Below are positions 4 to 6,908 of a stretch of 7,077 nucleotides of DNA, piece by piece (position 1 is the stretch's first letter; each line of letters opens with the position of its first letter). This stretch comes from Candidatus Bathyarchaeota archaeon. Its GTDB lineage: Archaea > Thermoproteota > Bathyarchaeia > TCS64. The notes beneath the pieces are model-generated. The model was not told the origin of the DNA, did not search any database, and was given only the letters and a program-made list of their open reading frames with translations. A program made the translations under genes and the position numbers. The stretch spans positions 1 to 7,077 of the forward strand of contig JABXKY010000171.1 in NCBI GenBank assembly GCA_013619005.1. The letters are read 5' to 3'.

Positions 4-1152
4 TTACGCATCCCGTTTGTACGCCGTTGAGCCCTCGACGATTGTCTCAATGACGTTGAAGCTTTCGTCCATGATCACGATATCTGCATCGAACCCGGGC
101 TCCAGCCTCCCTTTTGATTCTAATCCAAGAACTCTTGCGGGAGTGGTTGTCGCCATCTGCACGGCAACGGGTAGACTAACCCCTACCTTTTCCACCAAGT
201 TACGCACCGCCTTATCGAGGCCAACTGAGCTACCGGCAATCACCCCAGATGGCAACTTGATAAGACCATCATCCAACAGGAAGATTCTACCATCAAGGAC
301 GTGCTCACCATTTGGAAGCCCAGCCGGTTTGATGAGGTCCGAGATGAGTACCGCTTTTTCAGGTCCCTTGACCCTGACTGTGAGCCCTAGGAGCGTTGGA
401 TGGACGTGCAGGCAATCCGCTATTAGCTCAACGGTTACGTTTTCATCCTCAAGCCCCGCGCCAACGACGCCGGGGTCCCTGTGATGGACTCCGCGCATCC
501 CGTTCCAAAAGTGACCTAGATGAGATACCCCGGCATCAAACGCCTGACGAGTCTCATGATAAGCGGCATCCGTGTGACCAGCCGAGACCACTATGTTGCG
601 TTCTCTCAGAAACTTAACGGCGTCAAGACCACCCTTGACCTCTGGCGCCAGTGTAACGATTTTAAGGGTGTCACCGGCTGCCTCATGAATCTCCTCAAGC
701 TGACGCTGGGTTGGCTCTCTAGCAAAGTTTTGCTGAGCCCCTATCCTGTTTGGGCTGATAAAGGGGCCTTCAAGGTGAGTTCCAAGAACCTTTGCCCCGG
801 ATACACTCCCTCTCATCTCACGTTTCACTCGCACTAGGGCTTCCAGGAGTTCTTTCTGTGGGGCTGTCTGCAACGTTGCAAGAAAACCTGTGACGCCTTT
901 GGAGGCTAGGCTTTGTGAGATATGTTGGAGGCTGCCAGTCTCCGGGTCCATTGCGTCGTGCCCAGCAATCCCGTGGACGTGTATATCTATGAACCCGGGC
1001 GCTATCACCGCGTCCCCGTGATCAACAACGCCATTACAAGGTCTCCGTGGCCCTACGTACATTATCTTGGAGTCCTTAACTTCGATCTGTCCCTGTTCTA
1101 TCGTTCGAAACGGGGTTACCAAGTTTCCTCTCAGAGCCATCAATGTTTTCAC
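4..1152 (-). CDS. nagA: N-acetylglucosamine-6-phosphate deacetylase (NagA)
   Basis: Hydrolyses GlcNAc-6-P to GlcN-6-P and acetate in the cytoplasm. It is an amidohydrolase-superfamily protein of 382 residues, the usual length for NagA. Visible motifs are the metal pair HVH at 58-60 after GFID, HLEGP at 126-130 (metal-ligand Glu128), SAGHTDA at 190-196 (His193), HFWNGM at 214-219 (His214, aligning with the usual HLFNAM), HHRDPG at 223-228, DCLHVHP at 246-252 and the catalytic Asp272 in ISDLIKPAG. The C-terminal ADIVIMD closes the small beta-sandwich domain. The longest reading starts at a GTG that overlaps the namZ stop (GTGA). The ATG at 1138-1140 (residue 5) is the likelier start because a GGGGGAG motif lies 11 bases before it and MALRGN gives a normal N-terminus. 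It is the last operon gene in the window, and its TAA stop lies at the left edge. The family call is very secure. Confidence 0.96.
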   Translation of the reverse strand: MKTLMALRGNLVTPFRTIEQGQIEVKDSKIMYVGPRRPCNGVVDHGDAVIAPGFIDIHVHGIAGHDAMDPETGSLQHISQSLASKGVTGFLATLQTAPQKELLEALVRVKREMRGSVSGAKVLGTHLEGPFISPNRIGAQQNFAREPTQRQLEEIHEAAGDTLKIVTLAPEVKGGLDAVKFLRERNIVVSAGHTDAAYHETRQAFDAGVSHLGHFWNGMRGVHHRDPGVVGAGLEDENVTVELIADCLHVHPTLLGLTVRVKGPEKAVLISDLIKPAGLPNGEHVLDGRIFLLDDGLIKLPSGVIAGSSVGLDKAVRNLVEKVGVSLPVAVQMATTTPARVLGLESKGRLEPGFDADIVIMDESFNVIETIVEGSTAYKRDA

Positions 1153-2312
1153 TCCCCCACGTCATAGAGAAGATGCCTTTCCCTTTTTTTGAGATACCGT
1201 TTGGTCTCGGCTTCCCAGGACCCAACTATGTTATCAACAGGCGTATTCTGTTTCAGGTGTTCTCTGAGTTTATCTGTTCCCGCCAATAGGTCGAAGTGGC
1301 GCCGTGGTTCATAGGATGGTTCATTGAACTTGAACTCGTCTGGGTGCTGTTGCCTCAATGTTGATAGAAGATGTACCCCGGTCTCCACGGGCTTGAACAG
1401 GTCCCGGTCAATTACGTGGACCTGAACCCCGTTACATCTGGTGTCCTTGAACCGCCAGAAAGCCGGGGTAAAGTGGCACCCGCGGAACTTTACGCCAGGC
1501 AGCCCAAGCCCGTTCATAGACCCCGCCCATTTTTTCTCATCGATCCAGGGCGCTCCAAGGTATTCGAACGGTCTGGTTGTCCCTCTCCCCTCAGAGGCAT
1601 TTACCCCCTCGAAAAAACAGGTCCCCGGGTACACCGTGGCTGTATCAATCGAGGGCAGGTTAGGGCTAGGCTGGACCCATGGAAGTCCCGTCTCGTCGAA
1701 CCAGTGCTCCCTCCGCCAGCCCTTCAATGGGATGATGCTGAGTTCGCATTGAATCACGCCGTTGATGAGAGACGCCAGCTCGCCCGTTGTCAGACCATGC
1801 CTTATGGGAATCGGGTGAAGCCCCACAAAGGACTCGTACCCCTGTTCCAGGATGTTTCCCTCGACGTTTACCCCGTTTATAGGGTTGGGCCGATCCAGCA
1901 CCACCACTTTTACGCCGTGCCTAGCGGCGGACTCCATGCAATGGGTCAGTGTTGACACATAGGTATAGAACCTTGACCCGCAGTCCTGAATGTCAAAGAC
2001 AAGGGTATCAACGCCCTCCAACATCTTCTCCGTTGGCGCCCTGTGGTCACCGTACAGACTGTAAACTGGAAGCCCTGTGTATGGGTCCCTGTGACTTGGC
2101 ACATCCAGGGCGTCCTGTATGTCCCCCCTTGCCCCGTGCTCCGGGCCGAAGACGGCTGTTAGCTTGATTTCCTCGTGTTTATGGAAGGCATCTAAAGTTG
2201 ATTCAAGTTGGGCTGTTACACCGGTTGGGTTGGTCACAAGGCCGATCCCATCAAACCCAAGGCAAGCCCTGGGCTCGTCGAGGAGAACATCTACCCCGGG
2301 TAATACCTTCAA
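1149..2312 (-). CDS. namZ: DUF1343 / GH171 exo-beta-N-acetylmuramidase (NamZ-like)
   Basis: Members of this family (DUF1343, CAZy GH171; Bacillus subtilis NamZ) remove MurNAc from the non-reducing end of peptidoglycan fragments. The 387-residue protein carries the family signatures in order: GLVTNPTG at 24-31, FGPEHGARGD at 55-64, SLYGD at 85-89, FDIQDCGSRFYTYVSTL at 106-122, VLDRPNPING at 138-147, RHGLTTGELA at 171-180, QPSPNLPS at 214-221, EGVNASEGRGTTRPFE at 235-250. Glu58 in the PEHG motif is a good candidate active-site acid (inference). Many bacterial relatives are exported, but this one starts directly at the domain (MKVLPGVDVLL) with no signal peptide, so it should act on imported fragments in the cytoplasm. 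The TTG start is supported by a perfect AGGAGG eight bases upstream, and TTGA overlaps the stop of the preceding gene. The family is certain; substrate specificity is inferred from the family and from neighbouring murQ. Confidence 0.93.
   Translation of the reverse strand: MKVLPGVDVLLDEPRACLGFDGIGLVTNPTGVTAQLESTLDAFHKHEEIKLTAVFGPEHGARGDIQDALDVPSHRDPYTGLPVYSLYGDHRAPTEKMLEGVDTLVFDIQDCGSRFYTYVSTLTHCMESAARHGVKVVVLDRPNPINGVNVEGNILEQGYESFVGLHPIPIRHGLTTGELASLINGVIQCELSIIPLKGWRREHWFDETGLPWVQPSPNLPSIDTATVYPGTCFFEGVNASEGRGTTRPFEYLGAPWIDEKKWAGSMNGLGLPGVKFRGCHFTPAFWRFKDTRCNGVQVHVIDRDLFKPVETGVHLLSTLRQQHPDEFKFNEPSYEPRRHFDLLAGTDKLREHLKQNTPVDNIVGSWEAETKRYLKKRERHLLYDVGE
1152..1158 (-). promoter_or_regulatory. 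Shine-Dalgarno-like site favouring the ATG start of nagA
   Basis: On the minus strand this reads GGGGGAG, followed by TGA. It sits 11 bases before the ATG at 1138-1140 but overlaps the upstream GTG, so it can only serve the ATG. This favours a NagA protein four residues shorter than the longest reading. Confidence 0.5.
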
Positions 2313-3307
2313 ACAGAGTGCCTCCTATATGCCTGTCCGATCGTCTCCCATACCTTTCTCGGGTTGGCTGAAGCCATGTAGCTTCCCTCGGCTCCCCTAT
2401 AGGGCCAGGCGAACAAAGAGTCCGTTCCCAGCTCCGCCGCTATCTCAGCGGCCTCAGAGAGCTCCTTTTCTCTACCCTCAGGTACCTTGAACGCCATCAA
2501 CCAGAGCTGGGACCTTTTATTGTACTTATCAGCGAGAGAAAGGCAGTGCTGACCCTGTTCACGGAAGAACCTCAGCCCTTCCTCCCTGTTCATCTCCGTG
2601 TGGAAATAGTAGGGGTCTGTTCCCAGTACATCGATCTCGGGTATCGCCGCGATCTTCTCCCAATCAGTGATTCCGATAAGGGGGCTCTTGGTGGGTAACA
2701 GACAAGTGATGACATCGACGCTTGGGTCGACCTGTTTGACCTTCACACTTAGGTCCCTCAGGAAACCCACTGCGCGGTCTTCCCTGAAACCGATAACCTC
2801 CCCGGTGAGCTCAGAGGGCATATCTCCCCCGTGTTCCTCCTTGAAGAGACCGTCACATATTGGGCATGTGCATGCCCAGTCGGGGTCATGCCAGTTGGCG
2901 TAATGGGGCTCGTCCCAGAACAAGCCCTCAAGCTCCGTCTCACAGATCATGGCCTCGATACTTGTCTTCAAGTGGTCCCTAAACGCCTGGGAGTTGAGGC
3001 ACATGGCCGCGTATGGCTTACCCGACGCCCCCCGTTGTCTGCCCTCAAGGGAGCGCATGAGAAACAGGCTGGGGGGCTCACCAGCCAACGTTTTTCCCCA
3101 CCCCCATAGATCCACGTAGGGCTTCAGCCCTGCATCCTTGGCGGTCTTGATCAGATCCACGGTGTTGCCATGCCAAAACCACCAGTCAAACTCAGAGACC
3201 GCCAGCAGCACCGCGTTACAACCGTGGTCAACCATCTCGTTGAAGTCGAGAATAGCCCTGTCAGGGTACGCTACCCCATAATATGATACCCCTCGCTCAT
3301 TGATCAT
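2309..3307 (-). CDS. uncharacterised TIM-barrel glycoside-hydrolase-like protein
   Basis: A 332-residue protein that I cannot assign to a named enzyme. It has the rhythm of a (beta/alpha)8 glycosidase: RGVSYYGVAY (5-14) as strand 1, NAVLLAVSEFDWWFWHG (31-47), LKPYVDLWGWG (61-71), LEGLFWDEPHY (126-136), VDVITCLLP (197-205), IDVLGTDPYYFH (225-236), SQLWLMAF (266-273) and DSLFAWPYRG (296-305). The WDEP motif (Asp132-Glu133) at a strand end is the best catalytic candidate. It is followed by Cys147-x-Cys149-x-x-Cys152 and then F, resembling the CxCxxC..F insert seen in several uncharacterised family-10/42-like glycosidases and perhaps binding a metal. There is no signal peptide. It sits between murQ and namZ with overlaps of 11 and 4 bases, so a role in cleaving cell-wall sugars is likely. 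Because NagZ is absent, an exo-N-acetylglucosaminidase is the leading guess. The ATG start has AGAGG eight bases upstream. Confidence 0.7.
   Translation of the reverse strand: MINERGVSYYGVAYPDRAILDFNEMVDHGCNAVLLAVSEFDWWFWHGNTVDLIKTAKDAGLKPYVDLWGWGKTLAGEPPSLFLMRSLEGRQRGASGKPYAAMCLNSQAFRDHLKTSIEAMICETELEGLFWDEPHYANWHDPDWACTCPICDGLFKEEHGGDMPSELTGEVIGFREDRAVGFLRDLSVKVKQVDPSVDVITCLLPTKSPLIGITDWEKIAAIPEIDVLGTDPYYFHTEMNREEGLRFFREQGQHCLSLADKYNKRSQLWLMAFKVPEGREKELSEAAEIAAELGTDSLFAWPYRGAEGSYMASANPRKVWETIGQAYRRHSV
2321..2326 (-). promoter_or_regulatory. strong Shine-Dalgarno site for the TTG start of namZ
   Basis: On the minus strand this is a perfect AGGAGG, eight bases before the TTG at 2312. It lies inside the last codons of the glycosidase-like gene (the two Arg codons near its end). 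It decides the TTG start of namZ and suggests coupled translation. Confidence 0.75.
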
Positions 3308-4199
3308 CGTTCTCGCCTCTTGTCTCCAGTAACTGCCTCAGGGTACGGGGCCCCAGTTCCCTTGCCGCCTTTTCTGGGCTCATGTCGGTCATGGTCAGGA
3401 GTATGGCTACTCGGACATCCCATTCAGCGGCCTCAAGCGCTCTCTCCGCCTCCTTAACGGGTGCCCCCGTAATATCTGCCACTATACCTTTGCTCCTTTC
3501 TCTGAGCTTGATGTTTGTCGACTGAACCCCCACCATGTACCCGTCATACACGTAGCCGAGCCTGATCATCGCCGTTGTCGTCATCATGTTCAGCACCATC
3601 TTCTGGGCTGTCCCTGCCTTCATCCTTGTAGAACCGGCGACCACCTCGGGTCCGACAACCACCTCGATGGCGGTGTCGACCAGCTGGGACAACGGTGTGC
3701 CGTTGTTACATGAAAGGCCAACGGTGGTCACTCCAAGCTGCCGCGCTTTCACGATCGAGCCCAGCACGAAAGGCGTGGACCCGGACGCGGCTACCCCGAT
3801 GACTATGTCCTTTTCTTTTAACCCGAGTTTCTCCATCTCCTGCACGCCGTTTAATGAGTCATCCTCGGCGGCCTCAACCGAGGTGTAGATGGCTTTCACG
3901 CCGCCTGCTATCACGGCTGATATCTTTTCTGGTGGAAGGCCGAAGGTTGGAGGTATCTCTGATGCCTCTAAAACGCAGAGCCTTCCACTGGAGCCTGCCC
4001 CCACCAAGTAGACGCTTCCCCCGGCTTTGATAGCTTTTACAATACCCTCTACGGCTGCCTCAATCTGTGATAGTTGAGAGTGAATTGCCTGAGATATTTT
4101 TTGATCCTCCTTGTTGATGATCTCAAGAATCTCTCTGATAGGTCTCTCATCTATCCCCTTCGAAGCTATGTTCCTTTTCTCCGTTACCCTACTCATCAA
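3297..4199 (-). CDS. murQ: N-acetylmuramic acid 6-phosphate etherase (MurQ)
   Basis: Cleaves the D-lactyl ether of MurNAc-6-P to give GlcNAc-6-P and D-lactate; it is the signature enzyme of MurNAc catabolism. The 300-residue length matches the family. Visible features are the N-terminal TEKRN..S..ID segment (6-17), EIINKED (26-32), the SIS-domain sugar-phosphate loop GAGSSGR (67-73), LEASEIPPTFG (78-88) with Glu81 aligning to E. coli Glu83, VEAAEDD (108-114) with Glu112 aligning to E. coli Glu114, the GVAASGSTPFV stretch (135-145), GSTRMKAGTAQK (189-200) and a C-terminal helical region with TGAPVKEAERAL (244-255). Both catalytic glutamates are therefore present and the enzyme should be active. 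The longest reading begins at TTG, but the next codon, ATG at 4194-4196, is the likelier start. It overlaps the kinase stop as ATGAGTAG. GGTGG lies only four bases upstream, so translation may depend on coupling to the kinase gene. Confidence 0.96.
   Translation of the reverse strand: MMSRVTEKRNIASKGIDERPIREILEIINKEDQKISQAIHSQLSQIEAAVEGIVKAIKAGGSVYLVGAGSSGRLCVLEASEIPPTFGLPPEKISAVIAGGVKAIYTSVEAAEDDSLNGVQEMEKLGLKEKDIVIGVAASGSTPFVLGSIVKARQLGVTTVGLSCNNGTPLSQLVDTAIEVVVGPEVVAGSTRMKAGTAQKMVLNMMTTTAMIRLGYVYDGYMVGVQSTNIKLRERSKGIVADITGAPVKEAERALEAAEWDVRVAILLTMTDMSPEKAARELGPRTLRQLLETRGENDDQ
3316..3320 (-). promoter_or_regulatory. Shine-Dalgarno site of the glycosidase-like gene
   Basis: AGAGG on the minus strand lies eight bases before the ATG at 3307, inside the 3' end of murQ. 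It supports that start despite the 11-base overlap between the two genes. Confidence 0.55.
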
Positions 4200-5160
4200 A
4201 CCACCGAATACTCTTCCCCACGTTTACCTGTAAACCGTCGCTGATTTCTACGTCAAGTGAATTCAAGGCCAGTAAGGCCGAGCCAACTGTTGGAGTGAAC
4301 AATGGCTCAATAAACTCGCACGTCTGCGCCACCTCTCGCACGGTCTCCTCAAACGCGCGGTTATACCTGTTAGGCTGCTTGAACACACCGCCGCTGCAGG
4401 CAACGGGGAAACCTCCATCTATTTGAAGCCTCTTTATCACTGCCTGGGCTACCAGCCCTAACTGAGTGCCCGCGTTTTCCATGATGAAGGAAGCCACGCT
4501 GTCCCCGCGGTTCTCCGCCTCTTTCACGAGTGGCACTATCGAGGCAAAGTGACTCGCCTCACGTTCTGGGCTATAGGCCCAGTCAATAATCTCCTCCATG
4601 TCACTGAGCCCCAGATGACCCATTACCATCTCCTTCAGTTTTGTCGGAGCCCCAGATTGATCATGGTCTTTGAGGGCAGCTATTATCGCGTTCTTGCCAA
4701 TGGCGTAGCCACTCCCAACATCCCCGAGTCGCCAGCCCCACCCTCCAGCCCTGGCCTCCTCACCTTTCTTATTCATTCCGTAGGCTATTGACCCGGTGCC
4801 AGCGATGACGACAACGCCGGGTCTGCATCCTGTTGCCCCAGCTAAAGCTGAATGTGCATCAGAGACTATCTTGGTGACCCCATAACTGTTTGGAAGTCTA
4901 TCATAGATCTCCTCTCCTAGATGTGATCGAGTTGCCCCGGCTAGACCAAGCGTACTAGCCTTAAACTCCTCTACACCAGATGCCTGTCCTGCACTATTCA
5001 CCGCCTCGATGATGTTACTCAGGGCTTGTTCAACGCCATTGGTGATAGGGTTGGAGGGCCCGGCTTGTCCCCTTCCTACAACTGTGCCATCGAGTCTCAT
5101 GATTACGGCTCTGGTCCACGTTCCGCCGCCATCCACACCTAAAACATGGTCATCGGGCAA
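4189..5160 (-). CDS. BadF/BcrA-type amino-sugar kinase (GlcNAc and/or MurNAc kinase)
   Basis: An ASKHA-fold kinase that phosphorylates GlcNAc or MurNAc at O6 with ATP. Motifs in its 323 residues: phosphate-1 loop GVDGGGTWTRAV (8-19), GPSNP (34-38), LGLAGA (71-76), SDAHSALAGATG (100-111) with the probable catalytic base Asp101, phosphate-2 GTGSIAYG (121-128), GGWGWRLGDVGSGYAIG (139-155), adenosine-site SGGVF (256-260) and the C-terminal PTVGSALLA (290-298). The family usually reads GDEGS, so Val148 replaces a common Glu, while Asp147 is kept. The start is TTG: an in-frame TAA lies two codons upstream, and beginning later would cut into the phosphate-1 loop. It has no Shine-Dalgarno sequence and is the first gene of the operon. 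Directly preceding murQ, it most sensibly makes MurNAc-6-P, like clostridial MurK, with GlcNAc as a possible second substrate. The family is secure; sugar preference is not resolved from sequence. Confidence 0.9.
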   Translation of the reverse strand: MPDDHVLGVDGGGTWTRAVIMRLDGTVVGRGQAGPSNPITNGVEQALSNIIEAVNSAGQASGVEEFKASTLGLAGATRSHLGEEIYDRLPNSYGVTKIVSDAHSALAGATGCRPGVVVIAGTGSIAYGMNKKGEEARAGGWGWRLGDVGSGYAIGKNAIIAALKDHDQSGAPTKLKEMVMGHLGLSDMEEIIDWAYSPEREASHFASIVPLVKEAENRGDSVASFIMENAGTQLGLVAQAVIKRLQIDGGFPVACSGGVFKQPNRYNRAFEETVREVAQTCEFIEPLFTPTVGSALLALNSLDVEISDGLQVNVGKSIRWFDE

Positions 5161-5200
5161 GTTTTACACAAATATGCTCAATACTTCGGGCTTTTAACGT
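5161..5200 (-). promoter_or_regulatory. candidate archaeal promoter of the kinase-murQ-nagA operon
   Basis: Reading the minus strand, a TATA-like TTAAAAG (5191-5197) is centred about 34 bases before the TTG start of the kinase gene. With the usual archaeal spacing of about 26 bases from TATA box to start site, transcription would begin near 5168, leaving a leader of only about eight bases and no room for a Shine-Dalgarno sequence, which is indeed absent. No convincing bacterial -35/-10 pair was found. The assignment is inferred from position and composition. Confidence 0.45.
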
Positions 5201-5203
5201 CTA

Positions 5204-5221
5204 TCATGCTTCAAGTCATGA
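5204..5221. promoter_or_regulatory. small inverted repeat midway between the divergent promoters (possible operator)
   Basis: TCATG (5204-5208) and CATGA (5217-5221) form an inverted repeat with 5-base arms and an 8-base spacer. It lies almost exactly midway between the two candidate TATA elements, the position expected for a regulator controlling both directions. Arms this short occur often by chance, so it is only a candidate. Confidence 0.25.
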
Positions 5222-5230
5222 GACCATAGT

Positions 5231-5270
5231 TCTAAAAAACATGTGGCTGGTTACTCTATGTAGATAGTTT
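5231..5270 (+). promoter_or_regulatory. candidate archaeal promoter of the D-aminoacylase gene
   Basis: TCTAAAAA (5231-5238) is centred about 36 bases before the ATG at 5271, predicting a start site near 5261 and a leader of roughly ten bases. There is no Shine-Dalgarno motif before the ATG (the preceding bases read GTAGATAGTTT). The arrangement mirrors the one facing the kinase gene, which strengthens both calls. Confidence 0.45.
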
Positions 5271-6908
5271 ATGTTCGATCTGGTAATTAAAAACGGAAAG
5301 GTTTTCACGGGTGCGGGGAACCCTTGGTTTGTCTCTGATATCGCGGTAAAAAACGGAGTAATAACTGAAATAGGGAAAATCAGTAAAGACGCTAAAACTG
5401 TAATCGAGGCGAAGGGCCTCGCTGTGGCTCCTGGAGTCATTGATCTCCACGATCATAGCGACTACACGATACTTGCTAACCGTGAAGCCGTCTCAAAGGT
5501 CCATATGGGCGTAAGCACCACTGTTTTCGCCAGCTGCGGATCCGGTGCAGCTCCGTTAAACGAGGAGATGCGGGACGAGATAAAGCGACACTCACCATTC
5601 CTGAAGGCATCAGGAGTTGATGTAACGTGGTCATCCATGGAGGAGTACCTGTCTTTCCTTGGATCAGATGGTTTATCCATTAACGTCGCGCCCCTGGTGG
5701 GCTTCGGCACCGTTAGAAAATACGTCATGGGTATGGAGATGAGGGCCCCAACTCCCCAAGAGTTGGATTCAATGAAACATCAGATAGGTCTCGCCATGAA
5801 GGCTGGTTGCAGGGGAATCACCACAGGCCTCAGATATGATCCGCAGAGCTATGCCACAACTGAGGAAGTCATTGAACTAAGCAAGGTAGCTGCTCAATAC
5901 GGTGGATTCTATACTAGCCATGTAAGAGATGAGGGCGACCGGGGAGCCCCCGTGGCCGCTATCGAGGAAATCATCAGGATCTCCCGTGAGGCGAATATTC
6001 CCGTCAATATAAGCCACTTTAAGATTCTGTCAAAGCGGTTCATGGATCTCTGCCCCGAACTCATCAAGATGGTTAACGACGCAAGGGACGAGGGGCTTCA
6101 AGTTACCGCGGACCAGTACCCATACAACGCAAGCGGCACCGGCCTTGGGGCATGGATCCCCAAGTGGGCTAATGAGGGCGGCTCCGAGAAGTTAGTGAAA
6201 CGCCTGAACACCCCCGAGGTTTACGAGAAGATCAAGGAAGGCTTGGCGGTTTCAATGGAGGACAGGGGGGGTCCTGAGGCTGCACTGATTAGTAGCTTCC
6301 CTCTTGACGGCAGCCTGGTGGGGCTGAACCTCGCCCAGGTAGCGGATATGCGAAAACAGGAGCCATTGGAATGCTCCCTTGAGCTACTCAAGGAACACGT
6401 GGAGGCGGTCCTATCTGGCAGGATAAAAGGCGGGTTTAGCATCGTTAACTTCAACCAGACCGAGGAAAACATCCAGCTGATTATGAGACAGCCCTGGGTT
6501 GCCTTTGGGACAGATGGTAGAGCACATAGCCCCACGGGTGTCTTAAATAAAGACATCCCGGCCCCCCACCCCCGGTTCTACGGGACATTCCCCCGTGTAC
6601 TAGGCAGGTATGTTCGAGAAAAGAACGTGATTACCCTCGAAGACGCGGTGAGAAAGATGACCAGCCTCCCAGCCCAGATACTGAGCCTGCGTGACAGGGG
6701 GATTCTTGTTCCAGGAAACCAGGCTGACATCGTTGTATTCGACCATGACACAGTTATTGACAGGTCTGATTTCGTGCCACCTGAGTCAACGAAACTTTTC
6801 CCAGAGGGCATACTTCACCTGGTGGTGAACGGGGAGATTACACTGTACGACAAAGAGCACACTGGGGCACGGGCCGGAAAAGTGCTTAGAAACCCGGTTG
6901 CCTCATGA
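5271..6908 (+). CDS. N-acyl-D-amino-acid deacylase (D-aminoacylase family amidohydrolase)
   Basis: A cytoplasmic zinc amidohydrolase whose characterised relatives remove acyl groups from N-acyl-D-amino acids. The 545-residue length fits the family. The small beta domain (MFDLVIKNGKVFTGAG, 1-16) leads to APGVIDLHDHSD (53-64) with metal ligands His60 and His62. Next come FASCGSGAAP (86-95) with Cys89 at the site of the bridging cysteine of Alcaligenes D-aminoacylase, YTSHVRDEG (214-222) with His217, ISHFK (247-251) with His249, and AFGTDG (411-416) with catalytic Asp415. The C-terminus has the family ending NQADIVVFD (483-491), HLVVNGE (516-522) and TGARAGKVLR (531-540). An in-frame TAG two codons before the ATG fixes the start. 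It is divergent from the amino-sugar operon and shares its 110-base control region, so it may handle D-Ala- or D-Glu-containing products of wall peptides. Related enzymes also act on other N-acyl or dipeptide substrates, so the exact substrate is uncertain. Confidence 0.9.
   Translation: MFDLVIKNGKVFTGAGNPWFVSDIAVKNGVITEIGKISKDAKTVIEAKGLAVAPGVIDLHDHSDYTILANREAVSKVHMGVSTTVFASCGSGAAPLNEEMRDEIKRHSPFLKASGVDVTWSSMEEYLSFLGSDGLSINVAPLVGFGTVRKYVMGMEMRAPTPQELDSMKHQIGLAMKAGCRGITTGLRYDPQSYATTEEVIELSKVAAQYGGFYTSHVRDEGDRGAPVAAIEEIIRISREANIPVNISHFKILSKRFMDLCPELIKMVNDARDEGLQVTADQYPYNASGTGLGAWIPKWANEGGSEKLVKRLNTPEVYEKIKEGLAVSMEDRGGPEAALISSFPLDGSLVGLNLAQVADMRKQEPLECSLELLKEHVEAVLSGRIKGGFSIVNFNQTEENIQLIMRQPWVAFGTDGRAHSPTGVLNKDIPAPHPRFYGTFPRVLGRYVREKNVITLEDAVRKMTSLPAQILSLRDRGILVPGNQADIVVFDHDTVIDRSDFVPPESTKLFPEGILHLVVNGEITLYDKEHTGARAGKVLRNPVAS

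Follow-up and report, generated by a model that had tools for sequence, protein, structure and literature searches.

Contig JABXKY010000171.1 of Candidatus Bathyarchaeota archaeon (assembly GCA_013619005.1) carries a cluster of genes predicted to act on N-acetylmuramic acid (MurNAc) and related amino sugars; muramic acid is a sugar typical of the walls of bacteria. The window that we analysed, 7,077 nucleotides long, is the entire contig, here C259, one of the 370 contigs of a 1.75 Mb metagenome-assembled genome (MAG) that is 85% complete with 6.6% contamination. It is filled by five overlapping genes on the minus strand and one divergent gene on the plus strand (Table 1). In order of transcription, the minus-strand genes encode a sugar kinase, MurQ, a barrel protein termed P3, NamZ and NagA, and neighbours overlap by 4, 4, 11 and 11 bases. 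A preliminary description of the window had called them fused into one overlapping operon; the overlaps stand, but the overlapping frames encode separate proteins.

Table 1. Features of the window, with strand and the evidence for each assignment.
Feature	Position	Strand	Evidence
NagA, predicted N-acetylglucosamine-6-phosphate deacetylase; stop codon at contig edge	4..1152	-	TIGR00221, 2vhl
NamZ, predicted exo-beta-N-acetylmuramidase	1149..2312	-	PF07075 E 5e-87, PF20732 E 2e-55; 4k05 E 2e-89
P3, single-domain (beta/alpha)8 barrel, candidate glycosidase, 332 aa	2309..3307	-	predicted structure, TIM barrel
MurQ, predicted N-acetylmuramic acid 6-phosphate etherase	3297..4199	-	NF003915, TIGR00274; further ATG at 4196
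Sugar kinase, BadF/BadG (NagK/MurK) family, predicted MurNAc/GlcNAc 6-kinase; first gene of the operon, TTG start	4189..5160	-	PF01869 E 3e-41
Divergent intergenic region with operon start	5161..5270	.	A/T-rich TATA-like stretches by eye; consensus resemblance only
D-aminoacylase / N-acyl-D-glutamate deacylase homologue, divergent	5271..6908	+	1m7j E 4e-66, 3gip E 1e-63

MurQ exceeds the curated cut-offs of two models (NF003915, 356.6 bits against 168; TIGR00274, 304.9 against 302), and its E81 and E112, which we take to be the catalytic glutamates, align with glutamates of the solved structures 4s12 and 4lzj. NagA is above the equivalog cut-off of TIGR00221 (320.1 bits against 225.65) and matches 2vhl with an E-value of 1e-65; its Asp272, within the motif LISD, aligns with an aspartate of 2vhl and of 1o12. 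The preliminary description had listed these residues of MurQ and NagA as intact, and the alignments agree. NamZ matches both Pfam domains of its family (NamZ_N, 290.9 bits against a cut-off of 26.9; NamZ_C, 188.4 against 25), with no signal peptide visible by eye. The BadF/BadG domain of the kinase scores 142.1 bits against a Pfam cut-off of 31.5, and its top solved relative, 8zo3 (E 3e-41), is named N-acetylmuramic acid/N-acetylglucosamine kinase. In the MurK of Tannerella, residues T94, I69 and S133-P134-L135 are described as bearing on room for the lactyl group (PMC10465942). Mapped by eye, their counterparts here are S100, T77 and G139-G140-W141, small except for W141, and a pocket so lined would allow MurNAc as a substrate.

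The window ends where, in relatives, the gene after nagA encodes AnmK, the anhydro-MurNAc kinase. In the host genome an AnmK gene opens contig C315, lacking about its first 27 residues at the contig edge. Despite the cut N-terminus the protein scores above the equivalog cut-off of NF007148 (429 against 387 bits), the only listed AnmK model to be exceeded, with twelve or more others under their cut-offs. On C315 an M28 peptidase gene follows AnmK, as it does in the genus mate G247. Because AnmK stands at the very start of C315 and shares this neighbour with G247, the operon very likely runs on across the contig break, from C259 into C315.

Our analysis suggests that the operon encodes most of a pathway that turns imported bacterial wall amino sugars into glucosamine 6-phosphate (GlcN-6P), and that it serves feeding on foreign peptidoglycan rather than wall recycling; we put the probability of this reading at roughly 0.85. 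The genes, their order and conservation, the domain of the host and the lack of MurB matches are observed, and every catalytic step, import and the source of the sugar are inferred. Inside the cell, NamZ would cut MurNAc from short glycans at their non-reducing ends, and the MurK-like kinase would phosphorylate MurNAc, and also N-acetylglucosamine (GlcNAc), at C6. AnmK would handle 1,6-anhydroMurNAc, opening the ring and adding a phosphate. MurQ would break the D-lactyl ether bond in MurNAc 6-phosphate, giving GlcNAc 6-phosphate (GlcNAc-6P) and D-lactate, and NagA would deacetylate GlcNAc-6P to GlcN-6P. P3 may be the glycosidase that takes off GlcNAc, in place of NagZ (family GH3). The D-lactate may be oxidised by a GlcD-type oxidase: FAD-oxidase_C, presumably the family of these D-lactate oxidases, occurs in 22 of the 27 genomes of the host's family, the host included.

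The cluster recurs in relatives. We surveyed 256 genomes of the class, counting MurQ only where it exceeded the curated cut-off, and found it in 13: twelve in the host's family (12/27, with 6/8 in the genus, the window's own included) and the outsider G029. A looser count at E <= 0.001 gives 237 of the 256 genomes and was rejected; these are mostly low-scoring matches of the SIS type, many of them in frames some 600 codons long, a length that would match GlmS. In the twelve loci examined around class MurQ matches, the order kinase-MurQ-(P3)-NamZ-NagA-AnmK recurs where the relatives' contigs extend far enough. It is seen on an 82 kb contig of G246 and a 111 kb contig of G237; on a 126 kb contig of G241 MurQ, AnmK, NamZ and the kinase are present but rearranged. 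Near MurQ in 11 relatives' loci, several of them cut by contig ends, are the kinase (9), NamZ (9), AnmK (8), NagA (7) and P3 (5). AnmK (PF03702) is found in 10 of the 27 family genomes, once as a fragment, and an M20 peptidase gene lies nearby in five relatives' loci.

This recurrence bears on whether the contig is a bacterial contaminant in an archaeal bin. All of its enzymes are of a bacterial kind, no universal marker gene lies on the 7 kb contig itself, and the bin has the contamination noted above. The tetranucleotide correlation between the window and 20 pooled contigs of the host genome is slightly low at 0.59, below that of seven contigs of >=5 kb from the same genome (0.64-0.79), and one of 60 bacterial pieces scores higher. 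The GC content of the window, on the other hand, is 53.7% against 53.6% in the same pooled contigs, so that its composition is compatible with the host genome, and synteny in relatives is the real argument for the host. The same order stands on long contigs of genus and family relatives, and the operon continues on C315 with the peptidase neighbour of G247, whose 7506-base contig is the same as that in the record of Candidatus Bathyarchaeota isolate CSMAG_2367 (L064). In protein searches, where most matches are nameless, the closest homologues with an organism name for P3, MurQ and NamZ are from Bathyarchaeota. In G029, ribosomal protein S9 and an RNA polymerase subunit with Fe-S motifs, presumably of archaeal type, are encoded 8-10 kb away from AnmK and a frame-broken MurQ; this MurQ (L042:7157-8001), beside AnmK, is split over two frames, through either a broken gene or an assembly error. 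A 1.08 Mb contig of G359, of the same phylum, comes close to a chromosome-embedded case. Having weighed composition, synteny and sister contigs, we rejected contamination as highly improbable.

The host itself is archaeal. A clan-resolved search with rRNA models identified a full-length archaeal small-subunit rRNA and a partial archaeal large-subunit rRNA in the same MAG; we preferred this result because the archaeal small-subunit model alone also matches bacterial control genomes. The placement check proposed in the preliminary description thus comes out on the archaeal side, by rRNA, by Bathyarchaeota homologues, by recurrence of the operon in the family and by the lack of MurB matches described below. 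The promoter layout, which that description had also read as archaeal, is in itself weak evidence. Within the last 18 bases upstream, no ribosome-site motif precedes the kinase, the D-aminoacylase homologue or NagA; the motif is clear for NamZ, a weak GAGG for P3 and only GGTG for MurQ. The first genes of the two transcripts do lack a Shine-Dalgarno sequence, as had been said, but crediting several internal genes with one was generous.

If the host is an archaeon, the question becomes whose amino sugar the pathway would use. MurB is required for making murein. No match to its MurB_C domain turned up in the family (0 of 27 genomes) or in further MurQ-bearing Thermoproteota (0 of 29; 28 from the phylum survey below, and G029), while 10 of 14 control genomes match, all of them bacteria. 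Because no family genome gave a MurB match, it is likelier that the archaeon feeds on foreign peptidoglycan than that it recycles a wall, and a joint absence in so many MAGs is hard to explain by assembly gaps. The amino sugar thus likely comes from other organisms. The preliminary description had gone further, holding that the substrate must be bacterial peptidoglycan; with predicted activities "likely" is the fitting word. Its preference for necromass or prey feeding over recycling agrees with the MurB result, although necromass and prey cannot be told apart.

MurQ is also found beyond the class. At E <= 1e-30 (TIGR00274) it occurs in 29 of 398 Thermoproteota genomes, the window's included, and 26 of these exceed the strict cut-off. 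The other 28 genomes come from 13 families that do not include the host's, and in 11 of these families at least one match exceeds the cut-off. We fetched 20 of those 28 loci, one being the Thermoprotei archaeon B15_G2 record. By best hit, 14 of the 20 have the kinase no more than 2.5 kb from MurQ, 14 have NamZ at that distance and 10 have both. The last count becomes 11 with the second kinase copy of locus L232, whose adjacent kinase was missed because its best kinase match is another copy. Joined with 8 loci of the class, these 20 gave a neighbourhood comparison of 28 loci. Beta-lactamase-fold proteins, a fold that we take to be that of AmiE, recur in 10 of the 28 (two scanned, with PF00144; the best NCBIfam match, PBP4B, is under its cut-off), and PIG-L deacetylases recur in 7 (one scanned). 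A gene for a LysA-type (diaminopimelate) decarboxylase is present in L229, L230 and L232 (391 against 298 bits in L232), followed in L230 and L232 by an oligopeptide-type ATP-binding cassette (ABC) importer, binding protein and permeases, under the NCBIfam cut-offs. In both L232:7131-16000 and L230:1070-9238, kinase-MurQ-NamZ precedes the decarboxylase and importer genes, and these look like loci for muropeptide uptake and use in other Thermoproteota. Agrobacterium is known to take up muropeptides through an ABC importer (PMC9790009). In L233, from the 99% complete genome G359 with its 1.08 Mb contig, a NagZ-like GH3 gene adjoins NamZ and scores 204.8 bits, just under the cut-off of 207; it is convergent with NamZ-MurQ (L233:5696-9355), and AnmK lies about 7 kb from NamZ. 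Together, importer, LysA-type, beta-lactamase-fold and NagZ-like genes would answer to the expected needs of muropeptide uptake and breakdown.

These neighbours also bear on the possibility that the enzymes act on a glycan of the archaeon's own, with a lactyl-ether or anhydro sugar, and not on bacterial peptidoglycan. A pathway that ends at GlcN-6P without NagB would suit amino-sugar turnover as well as feeding. Yet we know of no archaeal MurNAc, and kinase, AnmK, MurQ and NamZ together would read MurNAc and anhydroMurNAc. No MurB match was found, and some archaeal versions add the LysA-type gene and the oligopeptide-type importer, as muropeptides would require. We regard an own-glycan substrate as improbable, and prefer feeding on foreign peptidoglycan.

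Several observations weigh against this preference, beyond the low tetranucleotide fit and the limits of the MAG in completeness and contamination. The preliminary description called the salvage cluster complete-looking: kinase, MurQ, NamZ and NagA are present, but AnmK is cut off and the window contains no importer and no amidase. PF00144 is found in 26 of the 27 family genomes, with weak or partial matches in the host genome. None of the 27 family genomes has a match to NagB (Glucosamine_iso, PF01182), even though the operon is predicted to make GlcN-6P. Given no NagB match, the classical route on to fructose 6-phosphate is lacking, and GlcN-6P would either supply amino-sugar synthesis in the cell or lose its amino group to a different enzyme. 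GH3, the NagZ family, occurs in 5 of 27 family genomes; the host genome, 85% complete, yielded no match, so that release of GlcNAc would fall to P3, whose role is itself predicted. The kinase lies below the nearest NagK equivalog cut-off, NF046058 (133.8 against 370 bits), and no NCBIfam model names NamZ. MurQ is patchy, under the cut-off in 15 of 27 family genomes, among them 2 of the 8 in the genus, and MurB was the sole murein-synthesis marker searched, in MAGs 58-99% complete. Finally, the divergent D-aminoacylase homologue, which the preliminary description had made part of the cluster, is under the cut-off of subfamily NF006560 (207.7 against 340 bits) and has a match near the operon in only 2 of 12 relatives' loci, at 32-33% identity. 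Its similarity to 1m7j and to N-acyl-D-glutamate deacylase makes a link to D-amino acids tempting. Loss of this gene cannot be claimed for all relatives because several loci are cut short, but we place it outside the conserved operon and do not count it as part of the pathway.

No family of Pfam or NCBIfam matches P3 at E <= 0.001, nor does any Pfam family at E <= 0.1, and its assignment to a known family of either database was rejected. Its fold resembles that of GH42 (1kwg, 6lvw). Against the GH42 model PF02449 the window protein gives no match, while 16 of 66 relatives match weakly (best E 3.3e-4). In GH42 the place of the acid/base is presumably a glutamate at the end of strand 4, and that of the nucleophile a glutamate at strand 7. 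In P3, E133 is invariant in the 66 aligned rows and lies just past strand 128-132, which makes it a candidate acid; strand 265-271 has the invariant residues Q267 and W269 without a conserved acid (strands taken from the model, with no superposition). At 332 residues, with no conserved strand-7 acid and no Pfam match, P3 differs from the GH42 beta-galactosidases 1kwg and 6lvw. GH156, GH20 and GH123, considered as possible kin, are absent among the fold matches listed, which says nothing on kinship. P3 may act as a hexosaminidase. Alternatively, it could supply AnmK with anhydroMurNAc as a relative of Cwp19 (GHL10) that works in the manner of a lytic transglycosylase, a second role that we consider unlikely. 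The GHL10/Cwp19 model PF02638 has weak matches in 13 of the 66 relatives (best 4e-6) and none in the window protein.

Relatives of P3 occur in Asgard archaea, Bacteroidota, Planctomycetota and Clostridia, and more distant named homologues in Thermoprotei, Thermofilum, Freyarchaeota and bacteria. From 75 loci outside Bathyarchaeia we searched 50 P3-bearing genomes for MurQ; it exceeds the cut-off in only 21, and we rejected the idea that P3 belongs to murein catabolism everywhere. Among P3-bearing archaea outside Bathyarchaeia, MurQ is present in 1 of 10 (G256), with 0 of 8 in Asgard genomes. P3 of Jord-, Frey- and Sigynarchaeota (L071, L072, L074, L075) lies in a distinct, conserved gene neighbourhood that lacks MurQ. 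In 45 of 65 bacterial loci (L076-L143 without L079, L090 and L093) an SIS protein, of the PRK02947 type in the one scanned, directly follows the P3 relative; GH20-, Gfo/Idh- and LacI-like genes lie nearby in these 65, and the whole forms a sugar locus in gut Clostridia, Bacteroidota and Planctomycetota. That P3 and GH3 are mutually exclusive was rejected as a claim, since GH3 in 1 of 6 MurQ genomes with P3 and in 2 of 5 without it (G240, cut at MurQ, omitted) is too few to say. As a well-modelled barrel with relatives in several phyla, P3 is a tractable target.

The history of the module was approached with a MurQ tree of 65 rows (64 different), 36 archaeal and 29 bacterial. The archaeal label changes 3 times on this tree against 21.4 in shuffles, and the starred branches force at least 2 changes. 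Neither a single archaeal clade (p-AU 0.091) nor one clade of the 11 host-family rows (p-AU 0.126) is rejected. The preliminary description had proposed such a tree as a check for an archaeal clade derived from bacteria; archaeal rows do cluster strongly among bacterial ones, but the donor cannot be named because the bacterial rows were drawn from P3-bearing genomes and plasmids (9 plasmid MurQ fetched of the 30 matches listed; 121 records). Rows omitted were L010 and L216 (the window itself), L158 (the same record as L197), the partial L013 and L014, L175 and L217-L219 (partial or below the cut-off), and the weak SIS matches L015-L031 and L176-L183. The open frames that hold the verrucomicrobial MurQ of L168 and L170 run to 634 and 684 codons, which may indicate a fusion protein. 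More tentatively, one could envision a guild of Thermoproteota, about a dozen families, that live partly on bacterial walls by means of an old archaeal kinase-MurQ-NamZ module. In Bathyarchaeia this module may have been elaborated into a six-gene operon with AnmK. P3 would then found a new glycoside hydrolase family, as a GH42-like barrel that has lost its strand-7 nucleophile, uses substrate assistance and replaces NagZ in archaea.

MurNAc catabolism has been described as bacterial and mostly as recycling of a cell's own wall. In Escherichia coli, AnmK, MurQ and NagA act in series, as they would here, but their genes lie apart, the sugar derives from the bacterium's own wall and NagB acts next. 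In Bacillus subtilis MurQ is encoded together with YbbC, which we take to be NamZ, and MurNAc is likewise converted to GlcNAc-6P through MurQ. The B. subtilis recycling cluster is given as murQ-murR-murP-amiE-nagZ-ybbC in PMC5061867, which also describes E. coli as keeping PBP4B by murQ. Unlike B. subtilis, the archaeal host has no MurB match and an ATP-dependent MurK-like kinase and AnmK where the bacterium has phosphotransferase-system transport; its operon includes NagA and P3, and the window lacks murP, murR, amiE and nagZ. Tannerella forsythia, with its murT-murK-murQ operon, is described as taking MurNAc from other bacteria and, like our archaeon, has a MurNAc kinase gene adjoining murQ (PMC10465942). 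Tannerella maintains a murein wall, however, whereas the archaeon has no MurB match and its operon adds NamZ, NagA and AnmK. Archaeal peptidoglycan hydrolases that kill bacteria have been reported (PMC12352652). They too act on bacterial peptidoglycan, but as described there they are aimed at live bacteria, in contrast to the intracellular amino-sugar pathway predicted here; MurQ, NamZ and "Bathyarchae-" do not occur in the main text of that paper.

Other genes lie beside the operon in relatives. In six Bathyarchaeia loci (L032-L037) a helicase gene adjoins the kinase; the single helicase scanned is DEAD_2/XPD-like. Five of these loci also have, on the same side, a gene for a permease of the branched-chain type (one scanned).

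Bathyarchaeia are widespread in anoxic sediments. In the open-access literature, covered by titles and abstract openings with subscription papers and most preprints outside its scope, we found no paper on archaeal MurQ, AnmK or MurNAc use. The nearest work found describes one Bathyarchaeia group as encoding carbohydrate esterases related to peptidoglycan degradation (PMC13288992). The host of this operon likely lives in part on bacterial remains or prey. Clustered and conserved MurNAc enzymes in archaea without a MurB match point to peptidoglycan as a food for Bathyarchaeia and other Thermoproteota, and the operon supplies genes to seek in metatranscriptomes as well as a route, open to testing, by which bacterial necromass may be turned over.

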